Source: Pontiella desulfatans (lineage in GTDB: Bacteria; Verrucomicrobiota; Kiritimatiellia; Kiritimatiellales; Pontiellaceae). From it: a stretch of DNA of 64,000 nucleotides. The notes under the pieces were generated by a model that did not search any database, was not told the origin of the DNA, and saw only the letters and a program-made list of their open reading frames with translations. Made by a program: the position numbers and the translations under genes. Each line of letters begins with the position of its first letter. Position 1 is the first letter of the stretch. The stretch lies in the NCBI RefSeq assembly GCF_900890425.1, contig NZ_CAAHFG010000002.1:310001-374000 (forward strand), in the 5' to 3' direction. Below are positions 25,044-33,057 of the stretch, in pieces.

Positions 25044-25787
25044 ATGGGCCGTGAAAACATCGATAACTGGCGGGTGCAACGATGCGCCAAGGTGTGCACC
25101 CAGTGCGCGAAGGAGTTCGCCGACAAGGAAAACCTCTTTTCCAAACTCATTTTCGATGAGGGCGAATATGTTCGCCATGATCTGTGCAAGCAGTGCTGGG
25201 ATAAGAAAGATCCCGGACTGAGTTCCTGGAAAACCACCTTCATTGTCCCGCCACCTCCGCAGGAGGAAGCGGTGAAGAAAGAGAATGCCGAATCGCTCCT
25301 GCGCAAGCTCATGGCCAAGGAAAACGAAGAAGATCTCAATGCCATCTTCATTCTCACGGTAATGCTCGAACGAAAGAAAATCCTGGTCGAGCGCGATACG
25401 CAAACCACGGAAGACGGTCGCAAGCTCCGCATCTACGAGCACAAGAAAACCAACGAAACCTTCATGGTCATCGATCCCGAGCTCAAGCTCGACGAACTTG
25501 AGGAAGTTCAGGAGCAAGTCGTTGTCCTCCTGGGCGGCCAGCCCCGCAACGCCCCCGAGCCAGCCCCTGCTGAGGATGGAGGGTCGGGTTCCACCCCGAC
25601 TGCCGCAGAAGAGGAGTCCGCGGCAGATGGAGGGTCGGGTTCCGCCCCGACCACCGCTGGAGGGGAAACCCCCGTGGCGGATGAGCTTCCCCTCGAAACG
25701 GATCAGCCCAATCCGACCGATCGGTCGGATTCCCCCAACACTTCCGATGGAGAACAGGAAGAATCCGGGGAAAAGGAACAGGCTTAG
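25044..25787 (+). CDS. Conserved zinc-ribbon protein of unknown function, with repeat-derived tail
   Basis: Protein of 247 residues. The first 55 residues carry four cysteines in two pairs (CTQC, CKQC) plus an extra Cys, suggesting a zinc ribbon. Residues 75-170 are charged and helical (ESLLRKLMAKENEEDLNAIFILTVMLERKKIL), with a conserved look (YEHKKTNETFMVIDPELKL). From about residue 178 on, the tail is low-complexity. Two of its segments (DGGSGSTPT and DGGSGSAPT) are translations of REP-like hairpins at 25578 and 25629. The function is not recognised. Proteins of this kind occur in Planctomycetes and Verrucomicrobia. Confidence 0.7.
   Translation: MGRENIDNWRVQRCAKVCTQCAKEFADKENLFSKLIFDEGEYVRHDLCKQCWDKKDPGLSSWKTTFIVPPPPQEEAVKKENAESLLRKLMAKENEEDLNAIFILTVMLERKKILVERDTQTTEDGRKLRIYEHKKTNETFMVIDPELKLDELEEVQEQVVVLLGGQPRNAPEPAPAEDGGSGSTPTAAEEESAADGGSGSAPTTAGGETPVADELPLETDQPNPTDRSDSPNTSDGEQEESGEKEQA
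25578..25600. repeat. REP-like hairpin, copy 1 (inside a coding frame)
   Basis: GGAGG foot, stem GTCGGG/CCCGAC, loop TTCCAC. It is read in frame by the zinc-ribbon gene. Confidence 0.8.
25629..25651. repeat. REP-like hairpin, copy 2 (inside a coding frame)
   Basis: GGAGG foot, stem GTCGGG/CCCGAC, loop TTCCGC. It is a tandem partner of copy 1, 51 bases downstream in the same frame. A degenerate third unit (GGAGGGGAAACCCCC) follows at about 25658. Confidence 0.8.
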
Positions 25788-25916: not shown

Positions 25917-27269
25917 GTGAAAAGGTTGCTGTACAATGATCTGGTGGAATGGAAAAAGACGGTGGTGCGAAAGCCGCTGATTCTGCGGGGGGCTCGTCAG
26001 GTTGGAAAAAGCTGGCTGCTTTCCGAGTTCGGTAGGCATGAGTTTCCCGCTTTCCACCTCTTTGATTTTGAGAAGGATTCCGATCGGTTGCTTCCGCTTT
26101 TCGAGGAATCCTTGGAACCTGGAAAGCTCCTTCAAGGATTGGCGCTCGTTCAAAACCGCCCGATTCATCAGGACGACCTGATTGTCTTCGACGAAATCCA
26201 GGCTTGCCCGCGCGCGTTGACGAGCCTGAAATATTTTTGCGAAGAGCTTCCCGAACAACCCGTTTGCGCAGCGGGATCATTACTCGGTGTGGCCATTGCG
26301 GGCGGTTCCTTTCCTGTCGGAAAGGTCACTTTCCTTGACCTCTATCCGTTGGATTTCGAGGAGTTCCTGATGAACAGCGGGCAGGATTTGTTGTTCGAGG
26401 CCTTCGTTTCATCGTGGAATGCACGGAAGGTTTCTGGAATAGCGCATACTGGTTTGTGGAGCCTGTTAAAGGAATTCTACATCGTGGGAGGGATGCCGGA
26501 AGCTGTGCAAACCTACTTCGGGCATGGAGACCGGAAGGCCGAGGGATTCTTTGCCGTACGGAAGCTGCAATCGGCTTTGATCGGTTCATTCCTCCAGGAT
26601 TTCACGAAGCATTCGGGGGCGGTTAATGCCGCGCATATTGCCGCCGTATTCGAAAACATACCTCGGCAATTGTCTGGCTATATGGACGCATCCGTGAAGC
26701 GTTACCGCTTCAAGGATGTTGTGCCTGGTCGAAAGGGCTATGGACAGCTGGAGGGGCCAATAGGGTGGTTGGAAAAGGCGGGGCTGGTTCATCGGGTATC
26801 CGTTTGCGAACGTGCGGAAGTCCCATTCAATGCATTTTGCAAAAACAACATGTTCAAGCTGTTCGTTCTGGATGGTGGACTGTTGGGGTGCATGCTCGGG
26901 TTGTCGCCCGATTCCTTGATGGCGCAGGACTATGGTTTGACCAAGGGTTTTTTTGCCGAGAACCATGTTGCCGCCGAATTCGTGGCGGCAGGAGAATCCC
27001 ACCTTTATTCATGGAGCGAACGCAATTCCGAGATTGAGTTCCTAATGGATTGGGGAGGCGAAGTGGTTCCGGTTGAGGTCAAGTCCGGCTTGCGGACAAA
27101 GGCACAAAGCTTGAGGCGGTTCATCCTGAAATATAACCCTCGGCATGTAATCAAGATTTCCGCGAAACCTCTTGAGGTCTCCAATGAAACCCTGATCAAT
27201 GTTCCTCTATATTACGCGGGCCGACTCGCGCGAGGTGGCCGGGATTTCCTCGAAGGTTCAGGCACTTGA
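25917..27269 (+). CDS. AAA ATPase with DUF4143 domain
   Basis: Predicted ATPase of 450 residues. Walker A is GARQVGKS (about 25-32) and Walker B is LIVFDEIQ (about 89-96); a KYFCEELP..CAAGSLLG segment is typical of AAA_14. The DUF4143 part ends with NSEIEFLMDWGGEVVPVEVKSG, which has the spacing of a PD-(D/E)XK nuclease-like fold. The family is widespread, patchily distributed and poorly understood; roles in defence or toxin systems have been proposed. The GTG at 25917 fits the usual start (KRLLYNDLVEWK); a TTG at 25878 is possible. AT content and lack of operon partners suggest transfer. Confidence 0.8.
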   Translation: MKRLLYNDLVEWKKTVVRKPLILRGARQVGKSWLLSEFGRHEFPAFHLFDFEKDSDRLLPLFEESLEPGKLLQGLALVQNRPIHQDDLIVFDEIQACPRALTSLKYFCEELPEQPVCAAGSLLGVAIAGGSFPVGKVTFLDLYPLDFEEFLMNSGQDLLFEAFVSSWNARKVSGIAHTGLWSLLKEFYIVGGMPEAVQTYFGHGDRKAEGFFAVRKLQSALIGSFLQDFTKHSGAVNAAHIAAVFENIPRQLSGYMDASVKRYRFKDVVPGRKGYGQLEGPIGWLEKAGLVHRVSVCERAEVPFNAFCKNNMFKLFVLDGGLLGCMLGLSPDSLMAQDYGLTKGFFAENHVAAEFVAAGESHLYSWSERNSEIEFLMDWGGEVVPVEVKSGLRTKAQSLRRFILKYNPRHVIKISAKPLEVSNETLINVPLYYAGRLARGGRDFLEGSGT

Positions 27270-28049
27270 TCCCATCGAATAGCCGCTGAGGTCGAGCGTC
27301 ACGAACTTGTAGCCGGTCTTCTTGATGGCGGCAACCAGCTCAATCCGCTCATCCATCAGTTTTTCGAAATCAACCAGGTCGATCTCGATTCGGCAAAGGT
27401 CGTCGTGGTGCCGGATGCGGTATTGCGAATAGCCGCGTGCCCGCAGGATGGCTTCCGCTTTTTCCACCTGGGTCATGGCTTCGAGTTCGATGCGCGTTCC
27501 GGTGGGGAAGCGGGATCCGAGGCAGGCGAACGAGGCCTTGCCGGCGGTCGGCAGGCCGCGCCGCTCGCTGAGGATGCGGATCTCCTTTTTGTAGAGCTCC
27601 GCGTTTTGCAGCGGGGCCACCACGCAATGGTTGGCGGCGGCCTGCGTGCCGGGGCGGACATCGCCCTTGTCGTCCTCGATGGCGCCGTGGGCGAGGACAA
27701 TGTCGCCAAACTCGGAAAGGATGGTTTCCATTTTGGTGAAGAGTTCGTTCTTGCAGTGGAAGCAGCGGTCGCCCTTGTTTTCGAGGTAGTCGTCCTTCAG
27801 GTGCTCCTCGGTCTTGATGATCCGCAGGTTCCAGCCGCGCTCCGTCGCCATGTCGATGGCCTGTTGCAGCTCGTCGCGCGGGATGGAAGGCGAGTCGGCG
27901 ATGACCATCATGGCGTTTCGGCCAAGGGCTTCATGCGCGCAGTCGGCCAGGTAGGTGGAATCGACGCCGCCGGAATAGGCGACCGCAATCGATCCGTACG
28001 ATTTAAGTTCATCGAGCAGCATCTGCTCTTTTTCATCTATTGAATTCAT
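27258..28049 (-). CDS. larE: ATP-dependent sacrificial sulfur transferase LarE-like
   Basis: PP-loop ATPase of 263 residues. The loop SGGVDS is at 26-31. A CxxC pair (RCFHC, Cys96 and Cys99) and Cys176 in ASFACLGSRF are the family cysteines. In LarE the last Cys donates sulfur to the nickel-pincer cofactor; the extra pair may allow a Fe-S route instead. The ATG at 28049 is chosen because upstream in-frame codons run through a REP-like hairpin. It overlaps the end of the convergent AAA gene by 12 bases. Partners larB and larC are not in the window, so a role in nickel-pincer synthesis is inference. Confidence 0.82.
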   Translation of the reverse strand: MNSIDEKEQMLLDELKSYGSIAVAYSGGVDSTYLADCAHEALGRNAMMVIADSPSIPRDELQQAIDMATERGWNLRIIKTEEHLKDDYLENKGDRCFHCKNELFTKMETILSEFGDIVLAHGAIEDDKGDVRPGTQAAANHCVVAPLQNAELYKKEIRILSERRGLPTAGKASFACLGSRFPTGTRIELEAMTQVEKAEAILRARGYSQYRIRHHDDLCRIEIDLVDFEKLMDERIELVAAIKKTGYKFVTLDLSGYSMGSSA

Positions 28050-28073: not shown

Positions 28074-28098
28074 GGAGGGGCGAGTTCCTCCTCGCCCG
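28074..28098. repeat. REP-like hairpin, copy 3
   Basis: GGAGG foot, stem GGGCGAG/CTCGCCC, loop TTCCTC-like. It lies just upstream of larE. Confidence 0.8.
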
Positions 28099-28134: not shown

Positions 28135-28199
28135 GGAGGGGCAAGTTCCACCTTGCCCGGTTCCTCACGTAAGGCGGCCCGGGTGGAACCGGGCCCTCC
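28135..28199. repeat. Pair of inverted REP-like hairpins, copies 4 and 5
   Basis: Copy 4 (28135-28160) has stem GGGCAAG/CTTGCCC and loop TTCCAC. Copy 5 (28173-28199) is in the opposite orientation, with stem GCCCGG/CCGGGC. The head-to-head pair right behind the transposase domain has the layout of a BIME, the usual mobile form of REPs. Confidence 0.8.
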
Positions 28200-28200
28200 A

Positions 28201-30249
28201 TCACGAGGTAAGCCAAATCAGTGAGTGCAGTTCCCCTTGGTATGGCCAATCCTCTGAGGCCTCAACCAATTCTGCTCGAACAGGATTGTTGCGAACATAC
28301 GCCCACTTTTCGGAATAGCTTTCACTTTGACGTAACTGTGTGTCCCAGAAATCGCGTTGAAATACCCTTGAGATGGAGGGGCAAGTTCCACCTTGCCCGG
28401 TGGAGGGGCCGGTTCCACCCGGCCTTTCGTCCGCAATGCTACCGTGCCCCAACTCCGCACGGGAAACCATGGACTTCCAATATTGCACCCACGTCTTCAG
28501 AGAAACATCCCGGGCTGCCGGTGAGCAGAACAGGTGGATGTGATCCGGCATCACCACATATTTCCCAATCCGCCAAGCGTCGGCCTTTTCCCATGCCGCC
28601 AGCAACCGTTCATGCATGGCATCGTTGTTCAGTATCGGTTGCCTGTTTTGGGAGCAGACCGTCACGAGGATGATCGTAGGCGTGTTGAACCGTTCTGTCG
28701 GTGGAAAGTGGGCGGGGTGTTTGCGGTGCGGGCGCGGGGACGGGGTGGAACCCGTCCCTCCAACTATGCGCATCAACCTGTCCATGTCGAGGTGTTGTTC
28801 GAAATGGGTGGCGAGGAGGTCGTATTGGGTTTGTTTGAATTCGGTGGCGGCTTGTGCATCTTCGGCGGCATAGCCCGGATTCAGGCTGCTTAGGTATTGG
28901 TTCCGGAATTCCGGGAAATCGAAAAGGCCGTGGAAATAGCTGCCTGCAATTCTTCCATCGGGCGATACCGCCCCATCGACATCCTTCACGGCCTGCCGGT
29001 TGCGGCTCGAAACGATTACCATGGGGTTGGCATTGGATCCGAGCGTGGTTTTCCCCATGTGGATTTCATAGCCGTCGATGAAGGTTCCATCGGCGAAGCG
29101 CCCTTGCGATCGGGATAGAACCTTGTCTTTCTCCAGCGTGGTTTCAAGATCGAGCAGGTCGAAACCTTCCGAGCTGCCGGGGTCTCCCTCGATGCCGAGC
29201 GGATCGTGCACCTGCTTGCCGAGCATTTGGTAGCCGCCGCAAACGCCGAGGATGTGGCCCTTGAATCCAAGGATGGATTCTTCCCATCCGGTATCCTTTA
29301 GCCATTGGAGGTCGAACCGGACATTCTTGGTGCCGGGAATCATCAGCGCATCGTAGCCCTCAAGGTTCCGCGGTTTCGAAAGGTAGTGGAACGACACCGC
29401 CGCGTTACGGATGAGCGGATTAAAGTCGGTGAAGTTGGAAATGTGCGGCAGGCGCAGGCAGGCGATGTTGATCTTGCCGGGCACGGGACGGACTGGCGGA
29501 TCGATGACGGTTTCCAACGGCATGCCATCTTCGGGGTCGATCTCGATGCCGCGGTAGTAGGGGATCAATCCCAGCACCGGCAGGCCGGTCTGTTCCTCCA
29601 GATAGGCGATGCCGTCGTCGAACAATGAGGCGTCGCCACGGAACTTGTTGATGATGAACCCGGCCACCCTTTGCCGGTCATGCTCAGGCATCACCGCAAG
29701 CGAACCGACGATCTGCGCAAAGACGCCGCCGCGGTCGATGTCGGCGACGAGGATGACGGGGGCGTCGGCGGCATGGGCGGTCTCGAAGTTGACGTAGTCG
29801 CGGTCGCGCAGGTTGACCTCGGCGCAGGATCCGGCGCCTTCGATGACGACCAGGTCGTGTTTGGCTTTCAGCCGTTCGAGCGATTCAAAGGCGGGCTCGC
29901 GGATTTTCGAGGTGTCGCTGAAAAACTCGGAAGCCAATGCGTTGCAGATGGCTTTGCCCTGCAGGACAACCTGCGAGCCGATATCGGTGTTGGGTTTTAG
30001 CAACACGGGATTCATGTCGGTGTGCGGTTCGATGCCACAGGCCTCCGCCTGTACCACCTGCGCGCGCCCCATCTCGCCGCCTTCGAGGGTGACATAGGAA
30101 TTGTTCGACATGTTTTGCGCCTTGTAGGGCGCAACGGACCATCCGCGGTTCTTGAAGATGCGTCCGATGGCCGTCACCACGATGCTCTTCCCCACATCGG
30201 AGCCCGTTCCGAGAAAGGCGATGCACTTGGCTGGACGGGTTTGTTTCAT
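28201..30249 (-). CDS. cobQ: Cobyric acid synthase fused in frame to a REP-associated tyrosine transposase
   Basis: 682 residues in two parts. Residues 1-496 are a complete CobQ/CbiP glutamine amidotransferase that amidates adenosyl-cobyrinic acid: P-loop-like GTGSDVGKS, AQNMSNNSYVT, EGAGSCAEVNLRDRD, GATase Cys337 in GVCGGYQ and His440 in SYFHGLF. Residues 497-505 are read from a REP-like hairpin. Residues 506-682 are a full-length Y1/HUH transposase of the RAYT class (PHRKHPAHF, HUH motif PDHIHLF at 568-574, RDFWDTQLRQSESY, YVRNNPVRAELV with the likely catalytic Tyr651). Two further hairpins interrupt the transposase part (residues about 608-626). No stop or frameshift separates the parts. 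Upstream neighbours are B12 uptake genes. Confidence 0.88.
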   Translation of the reverse strand: MKQTRPAKCIAFLGTGSDVGKSIVVTAIGRIFKNRGWSVAPYKAQNMSNNSYVTLEGGEMGRAQVVQAEACGIEPHTDMNPVLLKPNTDIGSQVVLQGKAICNALASEFFSDTSKIREPAFESLERLKAKHDLVVIEGAGSCAEVNLRDRDYVNFETAHAADAPVILVADIDRGGVFAQIVGSLAVMPEHDRQRVAGFIINKFRGDASLFDDGIAYLEEQTGLPVLGLIPYYRGIEIDPEDGMPLETVIDPPVRPVPGKINIACLRLPHISNFTDFNPLIRNAAVSFHYLSKPRNLEGYDALMIPGTKNVRFDLQWLKDTGWEESILGFKGHILGVCGGYQMLGKQVHDPLGIEGDPGSSEGFDLLDLETTLEKDKVLSRSQGRFADGTFIDGYEIHMGKTTLGSNANPMVIVSSRNRQAVKDVDGAVSPDGRIAGSYFHGLFDFPEFRNQYLSSLNPGYAAEDAQAATEFKQTQYDLLATHFEQHLDMDRLMRIVGGTGSTPSPRPHRKHPAHFPPTERFNTPTIILVTVCSQNRQPILNNDAMHERLLAAWEKADAWRIGKYVVMPDHIHLFCSPAARDVSLKTWVQYWKSMVSRAELGHGSIADERPGGTGPSTGQGGTCPSISRVFQRDFWDTQLRQSESYSEKWAYVRNNPVRAELVEASEDWPYQGELHSLIWLTS
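28375..28424. repeat. Tandem REP-like hairpins, copies 6 and 7, inside the transposase domain
   Basis: Copy 6 (28375-28400) repeats the stem GGGCAAG/CTTGCCC. Copy 7 (28402-28424) has stem GGCCGG/CCGGCC; both have loop TTCCAC. Related transposases go directly from the KSMVSR region to the QRDFWDTQ block, so this stretch appears to be an in-frame insertion. Confidence 0.8.
28737..28761. repeat. REP-like hairpin, copy 8, at the cobQ/transposase junction
   Basis: Minus-strand orientation: GGAGG foot, stem GACGGG/CCCGTC, loop TTCCAC. It occupies exactly the place where the CobQ homology ends and the transposase homology begins. Confidence 0.85.
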
Positions 30250-30372: not shown

Positions 30373-31359
30373 CTAAAGATCCAGCCCGCCCTTGCGGTTG
30401 AGCAGGAGGAGGATGAAGAAGGGGCCGCCGAGCAGGGCGGTGAGCACGCCGACGGGGAGCTCCGCTCCGGAGGTGAGGCTGGAGAGTACTCGGGTGAGGG
30501 TGTCGCACAGGGTCAGGAACAGACCGCCGAACAGGAAGGTGGCGGGGGTGAGGAGGCGGTGGTCGGCGCCAACGACCAGCCGGCAAATATGCGGCGACAT
30601 CATGCCGACAAATCCAATGGGGCCGCAGACGGCCACGACGCCACCGACCATCAACGACGCGGAGAGAAAGATGAGCTTTTTCACGAGCCCCGTGTTGACA
30701 CCGCGACTGATGGCAATGTCTTCGCCCACCACGAACAGGTTCATTTCGCGTTGGAGGAAGGTGAGCAGGGTTGCCCCGATCGCTAGGAAGGGCAGCAGGT
30801 TGAGCAGCTTTCCATAATCAGCGGTGGAGAGCGTGCCCATCATCCAGTGGACAATCTGGAACGAGTGCGTCAGCCCGCTGATGTATTGGATGAACAGGAT
30901 CAGGCTGGAAAAGAAAAAGCTGATGGCAATGCCGGCCAGCAGAAGCGTTGGTGTGGAAAAGCCCCCCTTGAGTTTGGTGAGGCCGTAGACGAGCAGGATC
31001 GAAAGCAGGGCACCTCCGAAGGCCGCCATCGACGTTCCTGAAATGCCGAGGAAGGTGAATGCAATTCCGAACCGGATGAATACGGACGCCCCCAGAGCCG
31101 CCCCACTGGAAACGCCAAGGGTGAAGGGCGTTGCGAGCGGATTGCGGAACAGCGCCTGGAACGACATTCCGCTGAGGGCGAGCATGGCGCCTGCGGCGAA
31201 TGCGCACAGTACGCGCGGTAGGCGGATGCCCATCAGGATTTCCCGCTCCTGGCCAGTGGCGTTGAACGGAATGAACTCCATGCCGAACAGGGGGCTGAGC
31301 AAGAGCACGGCGAGTGCGAATGCAAAAAGCGTGGAGAGGGCAATGTATGGTTTTTTCAA
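30373..31359 (-). CDS. btuC: B12-type ABC transporter permease (FecCD/BtuC)
   Basis: Inner-membrane permease of 328 residues with about ten hydrophobic helices. It has the FecCD signatures RLPRVLCAFAAGAMLALSG and GLVVGADHRLLTPATFLFGG-like segments (GFVGMMSPHICRLVVGADHR). It overlaps the ATPase gene by four bases, so the two are translationally coupled. The family also moves siderophores; B12 is preferred here because cobQ and a B12-riboswitch BtuB gene are adjacent. Confidence 0.88.
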   Translation of the reverse strand: MKKPYIALSTLFAFALAVLLLSPLFGMEFIPFNATGQEREILMGIRLPRVLCAFAAGAMLALSGMSFQALFRNPLATPFTLGVSSGAALGASVFIRFGIAFTFLGISGTSMAAFGGALLSILLVYGLTKLKGGFSTPTLLLAGIAISFFFSSLILFIQYISGLTHSFQIVHWMMGTLSTADYGKLLNLLPFLAIGATLLTFLQREMNLFVVGEDIAISRGVNTGLVKKLIFLSASLMVGGVVAVCGPIGFVGMMSPHICRLVVGADHRLLTPATFLFGGLFLTLCDTLTRVLSSLTSGAELPVGVLTALLGGPFFILLLLNRKGGLDL

Positions 31360-32144
31360 ATCGCACCTCCGGACATGATGTACGGAAGGGGGCGATGGGG
31401 GGAAGGGGCGACTACGAATTCAGTGCAGTATATGTTTTGAAGCACTTCGGCGTTTGCCGTTTCGGCAGGGGTTCCTTCGAACGCGATGGTACCGTCTTTG
31501 AGGGCAACGATTTGGTTGCTGCAGGATGTGGCGGTGTTGATGTCGTGATGGACGGCGACCACCGTGATGCCGTGTTCGCGGCAGGCCGATTTTAAAATGG
31601 ATGCCACCTTGGCCTGGTGGCGGTAGTCGAGAAACGTCGAGGGTTCGTCGAGCAGGAGGATCTGGGTGTCCTGCGCTAGTGCGGCGGCAATGAAAGCCAT
31701 CTGCCGTTCGCCGCCGCTGAGCGTATTGAGATTGCGTTTGCGCAACGGCAGGAGTCCGGCGCGGTCGAGCGCTTTGTCCACGGCCTCGTAGTCATCCTTT
31801 TGCATCGTGGTGAATGCAGAAAGGTGCGGATAGCGGCCGGTGGCCACGAACTCCTCCACCGTCAATGGATTGGTTCGCCCCTCGGCCTGGGGGACATAGC
31901 TCTGCAACCGGGCCAATTCACGGTTGCCGAGGTCGCCGAACGCTTTCCCTCCAATGCCGATCGAGCCGCTCCATTCCCGGTAGATTCCGGCCATGCACTT
32001 GACCAGTGTCGTCTTTCCGGCGCCGTTGGGGCCGATGATCGAGACATAGACGCCCTCACCAATGTCCAGCGAAACCCCCTTCAGGATTTCATTCCCCGAA
32101 AGGCTGATCGACAGGTTCTTGATTTGGATGATGGGCTCGCTCAT
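31356..32144 (-). CDS. btuD: B12-type ABC transporter ATPase
   Basis: ATP-binding subunit of 262 residues. Walker A is GPNGAGKTT (about 38-46), the Q-loop follows, the signature is LSGGERQ, and Walker B is ILLLDEPSTFLD with the switch His in VHHD. It energises BtuC. It lies between btuF (64-base gap) and btuC (4-base overlap). Confidence 0.9.
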   Translation of the reverse strand: MSEPIIQIKNLSISLSGNEILKGVSLDIGEGVYVSIIGPNGAGKTTLVKCMAGIYREWSGSIGIGGKAFGDLGNRELARLQSYVPQAEGRTNPLTVEEFVATGRYPHLSAFTTMQKDDYEAVDKALDRAGLLPLRKRNLNTLSGGERQMAFIAAALAQDTQILLLDEPSTFLDYRHQAKVASILKSACREHGITVVAVHHDINTATSCSNQIVALKDGTIAFEGTPAETANAEVLQNIYCTEFVVAPSPHRPLPYIMSGGAI

Positions 32145-32208
32145 GTGTGTTGGTTCGATGAAATGATTTTACCAGAGGGCACTTTCCCATATCTGGATTC
32201 TTTTGTCC

Positions 32209-33057
32209 TTAATCATTTTGTCGGATGATTTCCGCGAAGTCGTCGAGGGTTTGGATGAAGCGGGGGCCGGGAATGCAGGTGTGGTCGCCGGTGAGGACGT
32301 GGATGCGGTGGTTCTTCACGGCGTTGATTCCGGCCATGCCTTGCCAGGCCTTGGTTGGGTCGGCGGGGGCCTCGGTGCCGGGGGCGAGCTGGATGATGAT
32401 GTCGGGGTTGAGCCGGATGGCGGCTTCCTTGGAAAGCGTTGAGAACGGGAGGTGGCCTTCCACCACGTTTTTTCCGCCGGCGATTTCGAGCAGCTCATTG
32501 TGAAGGCATTCTGTCCCAAACGCGTGGATCTGGTCGATGCTGCTTGCATCGCCGCCAAAGGTGATGAGGACGCGTGGGGCATCGCCGGACGTTTTCCGGT
32601 ATCCCGCAATCCGGGCATTGATTTCACCGATCCGTTTTTCTACTTCCGCTTCCGCTCCGCAAGCCATGCCGACCTTGCGGATGGATTCGGTGATGTCCGC
32701 CACCGAGCGCGTTTTCGTGGCAAGGTAGCGAATGCCAAGGCCATCAAGCCGGCTCTTCTCGTTTTCATATCCTTCGTGAAGGATGACCAGATCCGGTTTG
32801 AGCGTAACGATTGCCTCGAAGTTGAACTGTCCGAACCCACCGACGCGCGGAACCGTTTTTGCGGCATCCGGATAGGTGCAATAGGTCGTTGCCCCCATCA
32901 GCTTGTCGCCCAACCCCAGGGCATGGACGGTTTCTGTGATGTCGGGCGCCAAGGAGATGATGCGTTCGGGAACGCTTGCCTCTCTCGGTTGTGTTTCTTG
33001 TTTGCCGCAGCCAACAAGACAGATGATTACAAATAGGAATAGGGTTCGGGGCATCAT
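32209..33057 (-). CDS. btuF: B12-type periplasmic binding lipoprotein
   Basis: Substrate-binding protein of 282 residues with a lipobox (LVGC, Cys17), so it is membrane-anchored rather than free in the periplasm. The fold is that of class III binding proteins: RIISLAPDITETVHALGLGDKLMGATTYC, then KPDLVILHEGYE, and a long connecting helix. It delivers the ligand to BtuCD. It starts 3 bases after tonB. Confidence 0.88.
   Translation of the reverse strand: MMPRTLFLFVIICLVGCGKQETQPREASVPERIISLAPDITETVHALGLGDKLMGATTYCTYPDAAKTVPRVGGFGQFNFEAIVTLKPDLVILHEGYENEKSRLDGLGIRYLATKTRSVADITESIRKVGMACGAEAEVEKRIGEINARIAGYRKTSGDAPRVLITFGGDASSIDQIHAFGTECLHNELLEIAGGKNVVEGHLPFSTLSKEAAIRLNPDIIIQLAPGTEAPADPTKAWQGMAGINAVKNHRIHVLTGDHTCIPGPRFIQTLDDFAEIIRQND

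Follow-up and report, generated by a model that had tools for sequence, protein, structure and literature searches.

A REP-associated transposase fused in frame to cobyric acid synthase in Pontiella desulfatans, and the apparent residence of related transposases in host reading frames of Verrucomicrobiota

REP-associated tyrosine transposases (RAYTs, or TnpA-REP) are puzzling in that they are transposases under selection as low-copy, vertically inherited genes. Inteins with homing endonucleases place a DNA-cutting domain in frame into essential proteins, at fixed sites. In the work of Quentin et al. 2018 (PMC6006769), 'unexpectedly long' members were discarded as 'gene fusions or annotation errors'. 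Intragenic REPs are already known, including in Verrucomicrobia and in repair genes, and the inserts reported in that study are REPs alone, as dimers or groups of 20–30 codons and as clusters of 43–82 (De Nocera 2013, PMC3733652). In yeast, the WHO elements are DNA endonuclease elements at the 3' end of FBA1, intein-like without splicing, which home by replacing the 3' end of the host gene through DNA repair (PMC7282813).

A stretch of 64,000 nt from Pontiella desulfatans (the window) was analysed, in which a complete cobyric acid synthase (CobQ) is followed in one reading frame by a translated REP hairpin and a RAYT (Table 1). The RAYT resembles described TnpA-REP in its HUH motif and single tyrosine, its nearby and genome-wide REPs, the absence of a near-identical paralogue (the nearest within its own genome is only 37% identical) and purifying selection. 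It differs from them in that they are described as free-standing genes, of ~150–165 codons, whereas the cobQ copy is the in-frame C-terminal part of a host protein and has no start of its own. With intragenic REPs and Rickettsia palindromic elements (RPE) it shares hairpins translated in frame in functional genes, many of which act in DNA replication or repair; those cases consist of REPs only, without mention of an embedded RAYT in the part of the literature consulted, whereas here a whole transposase is embedded. WHO elements are likewise endonuclease elements linked to the 3' end of a metabolic gene, a functional analogy without kinship, but they are yeast homing elements and not bacterial HUH/Y1 enzymes with REPs. 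The sequence-only reading of this locus knew of no described CobQ-RAYT fusion, and none was found in the open-access literature; nor did that literature yield anything relevant on transposase domains in PriA, aminoacyl-tRNA synthetases or REP contexts. What is new relative to the known intragenic REPs is the RAYT gene living in frame within a host gene, for which no report was found in the open-access literature. Our preferred reading, held at a probability of roughly 0.8, is that cobQ acquired a RAYT in frame at its 3' end and has retained it as a C-terminal domain, with both halves working.

The sequence-only reading had described an uninterrupted frame from cobQ into the transposase; its coordinates were right, and the strand, which it left unstated, is minus. 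Its complete CobQ with intact Cys337 and His440 was also recovered, as residues 9–496 match the NCBIfam cobyric acid synthase model at 607.7 bits (cut-off 273) and both residues are invariant across 28 of 28 aligned CobQs. CobQ is present in one copy in the P. desulfatans genome. The assignment of the C-terminal part to the RAYT class of Y1/HUH transposases held as well, with residues 525–670 matching the NCBIfam REP-associated tyrosine transposase model (NF047646) at 85.9 bits (cut-off 80), and with the HUH motif and Tyr651 in line with those of stand-alone relatives in the alignment. Pfam Y1_Tnp scored 21.8 bits on this copy, slightly below its cut-off of 23, which was not counted as excluding a RAYT because the RAYT-specific model passed; the same model scored above the Pfam gathering score in ThiD-, PriA- and LeuRS-linked copies. 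Profiles of both RAYT subclasses considered here match the solved TnpA-REP structure 4er8. The two alternative frames of the RAYT segment contain 5 and 4 stops. In the AlphaFold model of the chimera, CobQ was predicted confidently and the RAYT with low confidence (pLDDT mostly <50, at an alignment depth of two sequences). The fused RAYT is probably catalytically active, which for a TnpA-REP would mean cutting and rejoining single-stranded REPs.

Table 1. Features at the cobQ-RAYT locus, in window positions.
Feature	Position	Strand	Remarks and basis
Single open reading frame CobQ – REP linker – RAYT	28201..30249	-	682 codons plus one terminal stop (translation)
CobQ (cobyric acid synthase), complete, residues 1–496	28762..30249	-	NCBIfam match, catalytic residues, AlphaFold model
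Linker GGTGSTPSPRP, residues 497–507	28729..28761	-	Translated REP hairpin GGAGGGACGGGTTCCACCCCGTCCC
RAYT (TnpA-REP, Y1/HUH) domain, residues 508–682	28204..28728	-	REP_Tyr_transpos model, profile match to 4er8
HUH motif His570-Ile-His572	28534..28542	-	Translation, alignment
Catalytic-type Tyr651 (YVRNNP; Y144 of alignment A1)	28297..28299	-	Translation, alignment
Two REP copies within the RAYT coding sequence, between HUH and Tyr	28375..28419	+	Translated in frame (GGTGPSTGQGGTCPS)
Head-to-head REP pair (REPIN-like), directly past the RAYT stop	28135..28199	not assigned (.)	
Additional REP, between the RAYT and the LarE-like gene	28074..28091	+	
LarE-like gene downstream of cobQ-RAYT	27258..28049	-	Start at 28049 inferred; named by inspection
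Upstream ABC transporter genes (permease, ATPase, binding protein)	30373..33057	-	BtuCDF-like by inspection

The hairpin at the junction, previously called REP-like, belongs to a genuine dispersed REP family: the window holds 8 matches where 0.06 would be expected, and the 8.66-Mb genome holds 40 exact ones, a reversed control yielding 0. Several of the genomic copies lie in head-to-head pairs ~47 bp apart. REPs inside the RAYT coding sequence number two here and one in each of two relatives (B12219 and G003, described below), and were absent from the aligned stand-alone relatives. In relatives, too, the LarE-like gene comes next after cobQ or cobQ-RAYT, and the ABC transporter genes are co-oriented with cobQ, with the permease upstream of cobQ in relatives too. 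Elsewhere in the window, a gene at 25044–25787 (+) contains two translated REPs at 25578–25646 (+), EDGGSGSTPTAAEEESAADGGSGSAPTTAGG, an in-frame intragenic REP insertion.

Among 80 CobQ loci from public genomes, a single one, that of Pontiellaceae B12219, aligned over residues 8–680. It is an in-frame CobQ-RAYT of 712 aa with 73% identity; its linker is longer than that of P. desulfatans, the lengths differ by whole codons and the frame is kept. In G003 the contig starts within a RAYT of 67–69% identity, followed by the LarE-like gene, so that a third species is occupied at the cobQ-larE site, while complete junctions are known from two species (P. desulfatans and B12219). The pN/pS ratio was 0.23 for CobQ and 0.22–0.28 for the cobQ-linked RAYT, at a divergence that saturates or nearly saturates synonymous sites; purifying selection acts on the RAYT as strongly as on CobQ. 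The fused RAYTs were monophyletic in the tree (support 0.985). Two options had been left standing by the sequence-only reading, a recent insertion that abolished the cobQ stop and a domesticated chimera. The first, in which a fresh hit took away the stop and the fused part is functionless, could appeal to the absence of the RAYT at the cobQ locus in related genomes; it is scarcely credible given that two or three species share the site at saturated synonymous divergence, that pN/pS is low and the motifs are intact, and that the best paralogue within P. desulfatans is so distant. Recent insertion, pseudogene and assembly error were rejected on the second species and on selection. The domesticated chimera is supported, and the fusion is old and present in a second species too, not a recent accident.

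Three states of the site were observed. B12227 is empty, with cobQ terminating at FDPI and then larE; in B1224 cobQ continues into a single REP and then a stop, with no RAYT; and in B12219 a 31-bp perfect direct REP repeat flanks the RAYT on both sides; of this repeat B1224 has one copy and B12227 none. Some relatives thus have a cobQ that stops short of the hairpin, a finding named beforehand as one that would speak against the fusion, but they represent the empty and REP-only states of a gain and loss history and are not evidence against it. In the CobQ tree, unfused species fall between the two fused ones (with moderate node supports), for which reason we take as the probable order of events a single gain and later loss by recombination between REPs, with separate gains as the alternative; the tree then requires several losses. 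Under our preferred reading, an ancestor shared by several Pontiellaceae would have captured a RAYT, together with its REPs, at the cobQ 3' end, the REP hairpin, stop-free in the reading frame, would serve as the linker, and the RAYT start codon would have been lost, such that the RAYT would be translated solely within the CobQ-RAYT polypeptide. The direct REP repeats on either side of the RAYT would later have allowed its deletion by recombination, leaving one REP.

Further C-terminal fusions were found. ThiD-RAYT occurs in frame in four species (G015, G017, G025 and G028; frames of 462–497 aa), and that of G028 was confirmed with curated models. The ThiD linkers are differing REP sequences, whose lengths of 114, 123, 108 and 105 nt are each divisible by three. 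The linked RAYT (pN/pS 0.15–0.20) is constrained at least as much as ThiD (0.18–0.30). In G023 (L122), thiD ends with a REP linker and a RAYT stub (HAHLRR) and then a stop, a remnant after RAYT loss. TatD-RAYT in G021 and G026 and RAYT-5-formyltetrahydrofolate cyclo-ligase in G034 are further in-frame cases.

A sister RAYT subclass, with the core LPHW...PNHVH...NPEKAG, sits within host proteins and is flanked by translated REPs (e.g. GRRDACDT..VPQASRLP). Its hosts are a B12/radical-SAM protein, PriA, HypF, XseA (in 8 genomes) and the CCA-adding enzyme. On one contig (L191) that has a radical-SAM protein with an embedded RAYT, the second open reading frame encodes a Fic-family protein with a RAYT of this subclass at its C-terminus. 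In the PriA of 16 species from two families, the RAYT occupies one fixed site, after the 3'-DNA-binding domain and ahead of the next domain, in frame every time; PriA is single-copy in nearly all genomes that yielded it, with two fragments at contig ends in G025. The embedded RAYT has a pN/pS of 0.15–0.20 against 0.11–0.19 for the helicase. In G019, an identical 33-residue repeat is present in both RAYT flanks. The PriA of P. desulfatans itself (L196, G000:C4:914600-918600) has no RAYT, and a single in-frame copy of a repeat of this kind, ~40 residues long (VDGASSSV...NGAGCSVYEKL), stands at the very site where relatives carry it, apparently an excision scar. In the PriA of G032 (L197) the catalytic tyrosine is replaced by histidine (HIEDNP); this domain is possibly dead, with the frame kept. 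A Foldseek search with a PriA-RAYT model returned PriA and other helicases, with no HUH hit among the matches listed.

LeuRS carries a RAYT in its editing domain at one site in four Verrucomicrobiota species of three genera (L299, L305, L295 and L287), at about profile positions 361–367, where six relatives show no gap; each of these genomes has one LeuRS above the cut-off. ValRS, CarB, MetH and fumarase were checked as hosts with Pfam; for CarB the RAYT was detected with a profile built for this analysis, Y1_Tnp being below the Pfam threshold used. Among the matches listed for the sister subclass in the 43 genomes of the order, 53 of 63 fall within open frames of 350 codons or more, a fraction biased upward because the query was built from embedded copies. 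The HxH motif is present in all 61 host-linked RAYTs collected in the class, and the tyrosine in 60, the exception being the PriA copy of G032. Host identities rest on curated models for the scanned proteins and on signature motifs or inspection for the others, and a frame was counted only if host protein flanked the RAYT on at least one side. In GC-rich genomes a long open frame may be spurious, and cases beyond those checked should not be taken as real; several long frames around RAYTs were rejected as spurious (e.g. L156, 963 aa, without recognisable host sequence). Many of the surveyed genomes are metagenome assemblies, and the pattern recurs across independent ones. The premise that the CobQ fusion is a singular case proved wrong, as the phylum has more than ten host families, CobQ among them, and in-frame residence of RAYTs inside or at the end of ordinary, even essential host genes is widespread there and apparently undescribed.

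CobQ-RAYT is probably translated as a single chimeric polypeptide. The RAYT could also be made separately from an internal start in the cobQ tail, by coupling or reinitiation, with the open frame incidental. In-frame ATG codons are present at cobQ residues 489 and 493, a RAYT stop would be harmless to CobQ, which does not require the frame, and selection on a C-terminal RAYT does not by itself prove joint translation. These ATGs lack a Shine-Dalgarno sequence, however, and no start codon with a Shine-Dalgarno-like sequence nearby was found at either of the two cobQ junctions; stand-alone relatives have an ATG shortly ahead of the RKHPAH-like core, which the fusions lack. Three of the four ThiD linkers have no in-frame start codon, the four ThiD and two CobQ linkers vary in length and all keep the frame, and embedded cases (PriA, XseA, LeuRS) must be read through because the host protein continues past the RAYT. 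Separate translation is considered unlikely. Removal of the insert by intein-like protein splicing or as an RNA intron, leaving the mature host protein unfused, is very improbable. The embedded RAYTs do recall inteins as in-frame DNA-cutting domains at fixed sites of single-copy essential proteins, but the RAYT cases differ in having no protein-splicing domain, and the insert apparently remains in the host protein. No intein/Hint domain was detected in Pfam scans of CobQ-RAYT and 14 other chimeras, six loci (L001, L116, L179, L299, L291 and L262) gave no Rfam match to a catalogued group I/II intron, and the REP linkers, variable in sequence and length, are ill-suited to splice junctions.

REP hairpins of these families are stop-free in at least one frame, and because of this an in-frame landing would yield linker, domain and linker. 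Frame-breaking insertions in essential genes would be lost, and in-frame ones at tolerant places would survive. For an embedded RAYT, a stop or frameshift would destroy the host gene too, so that the host frame may shield the RAYT from decay and account for its persistence. A C-terminal site has no such protection by the host frame, and the conserved cobQ frame therefore suggests a benefit from co-expression or from the RAYT itself. HUH transposases have single-stranded DNA as their substrate, and PriA, XseA and TatD work on such DNA or on forks. The overlap could reflect targeting, or only which insertions are tolerated; targeting to single-stranded DNA would not account for most of the other hosts (CobQ, ThiD, HypF, LeuRS).

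Taken across Verrucomicrobiota (in the GTDB sense, including Kiritimatiellota), we consider it fairly probable that RAYTs lead an intein-like life without splicing, as long-lasting in-frame domains of single-copy, often essential proteins (PriA, LeuRS, ValRS, XseA, CCA-adding enzyme, CarB), joined by translated REP linkers and shielded by the host frame, and that PriA and XseA may deliver the RAYT to single-stranded DNA. PriA, LeuRS and similar proteins would then carry an HUH nuclease domain of ~180 residues, which raises the questions of how the host enzymes tolerate it, of REP-mediated excision and of recruitment to replication forks. Host-RAYT genes may be misannotated or thrown out as annotation errors. 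For the RAYT family, residence in host frames would offer a concrete mechanism of persistence, in which the host frame guards the embedded transposase.
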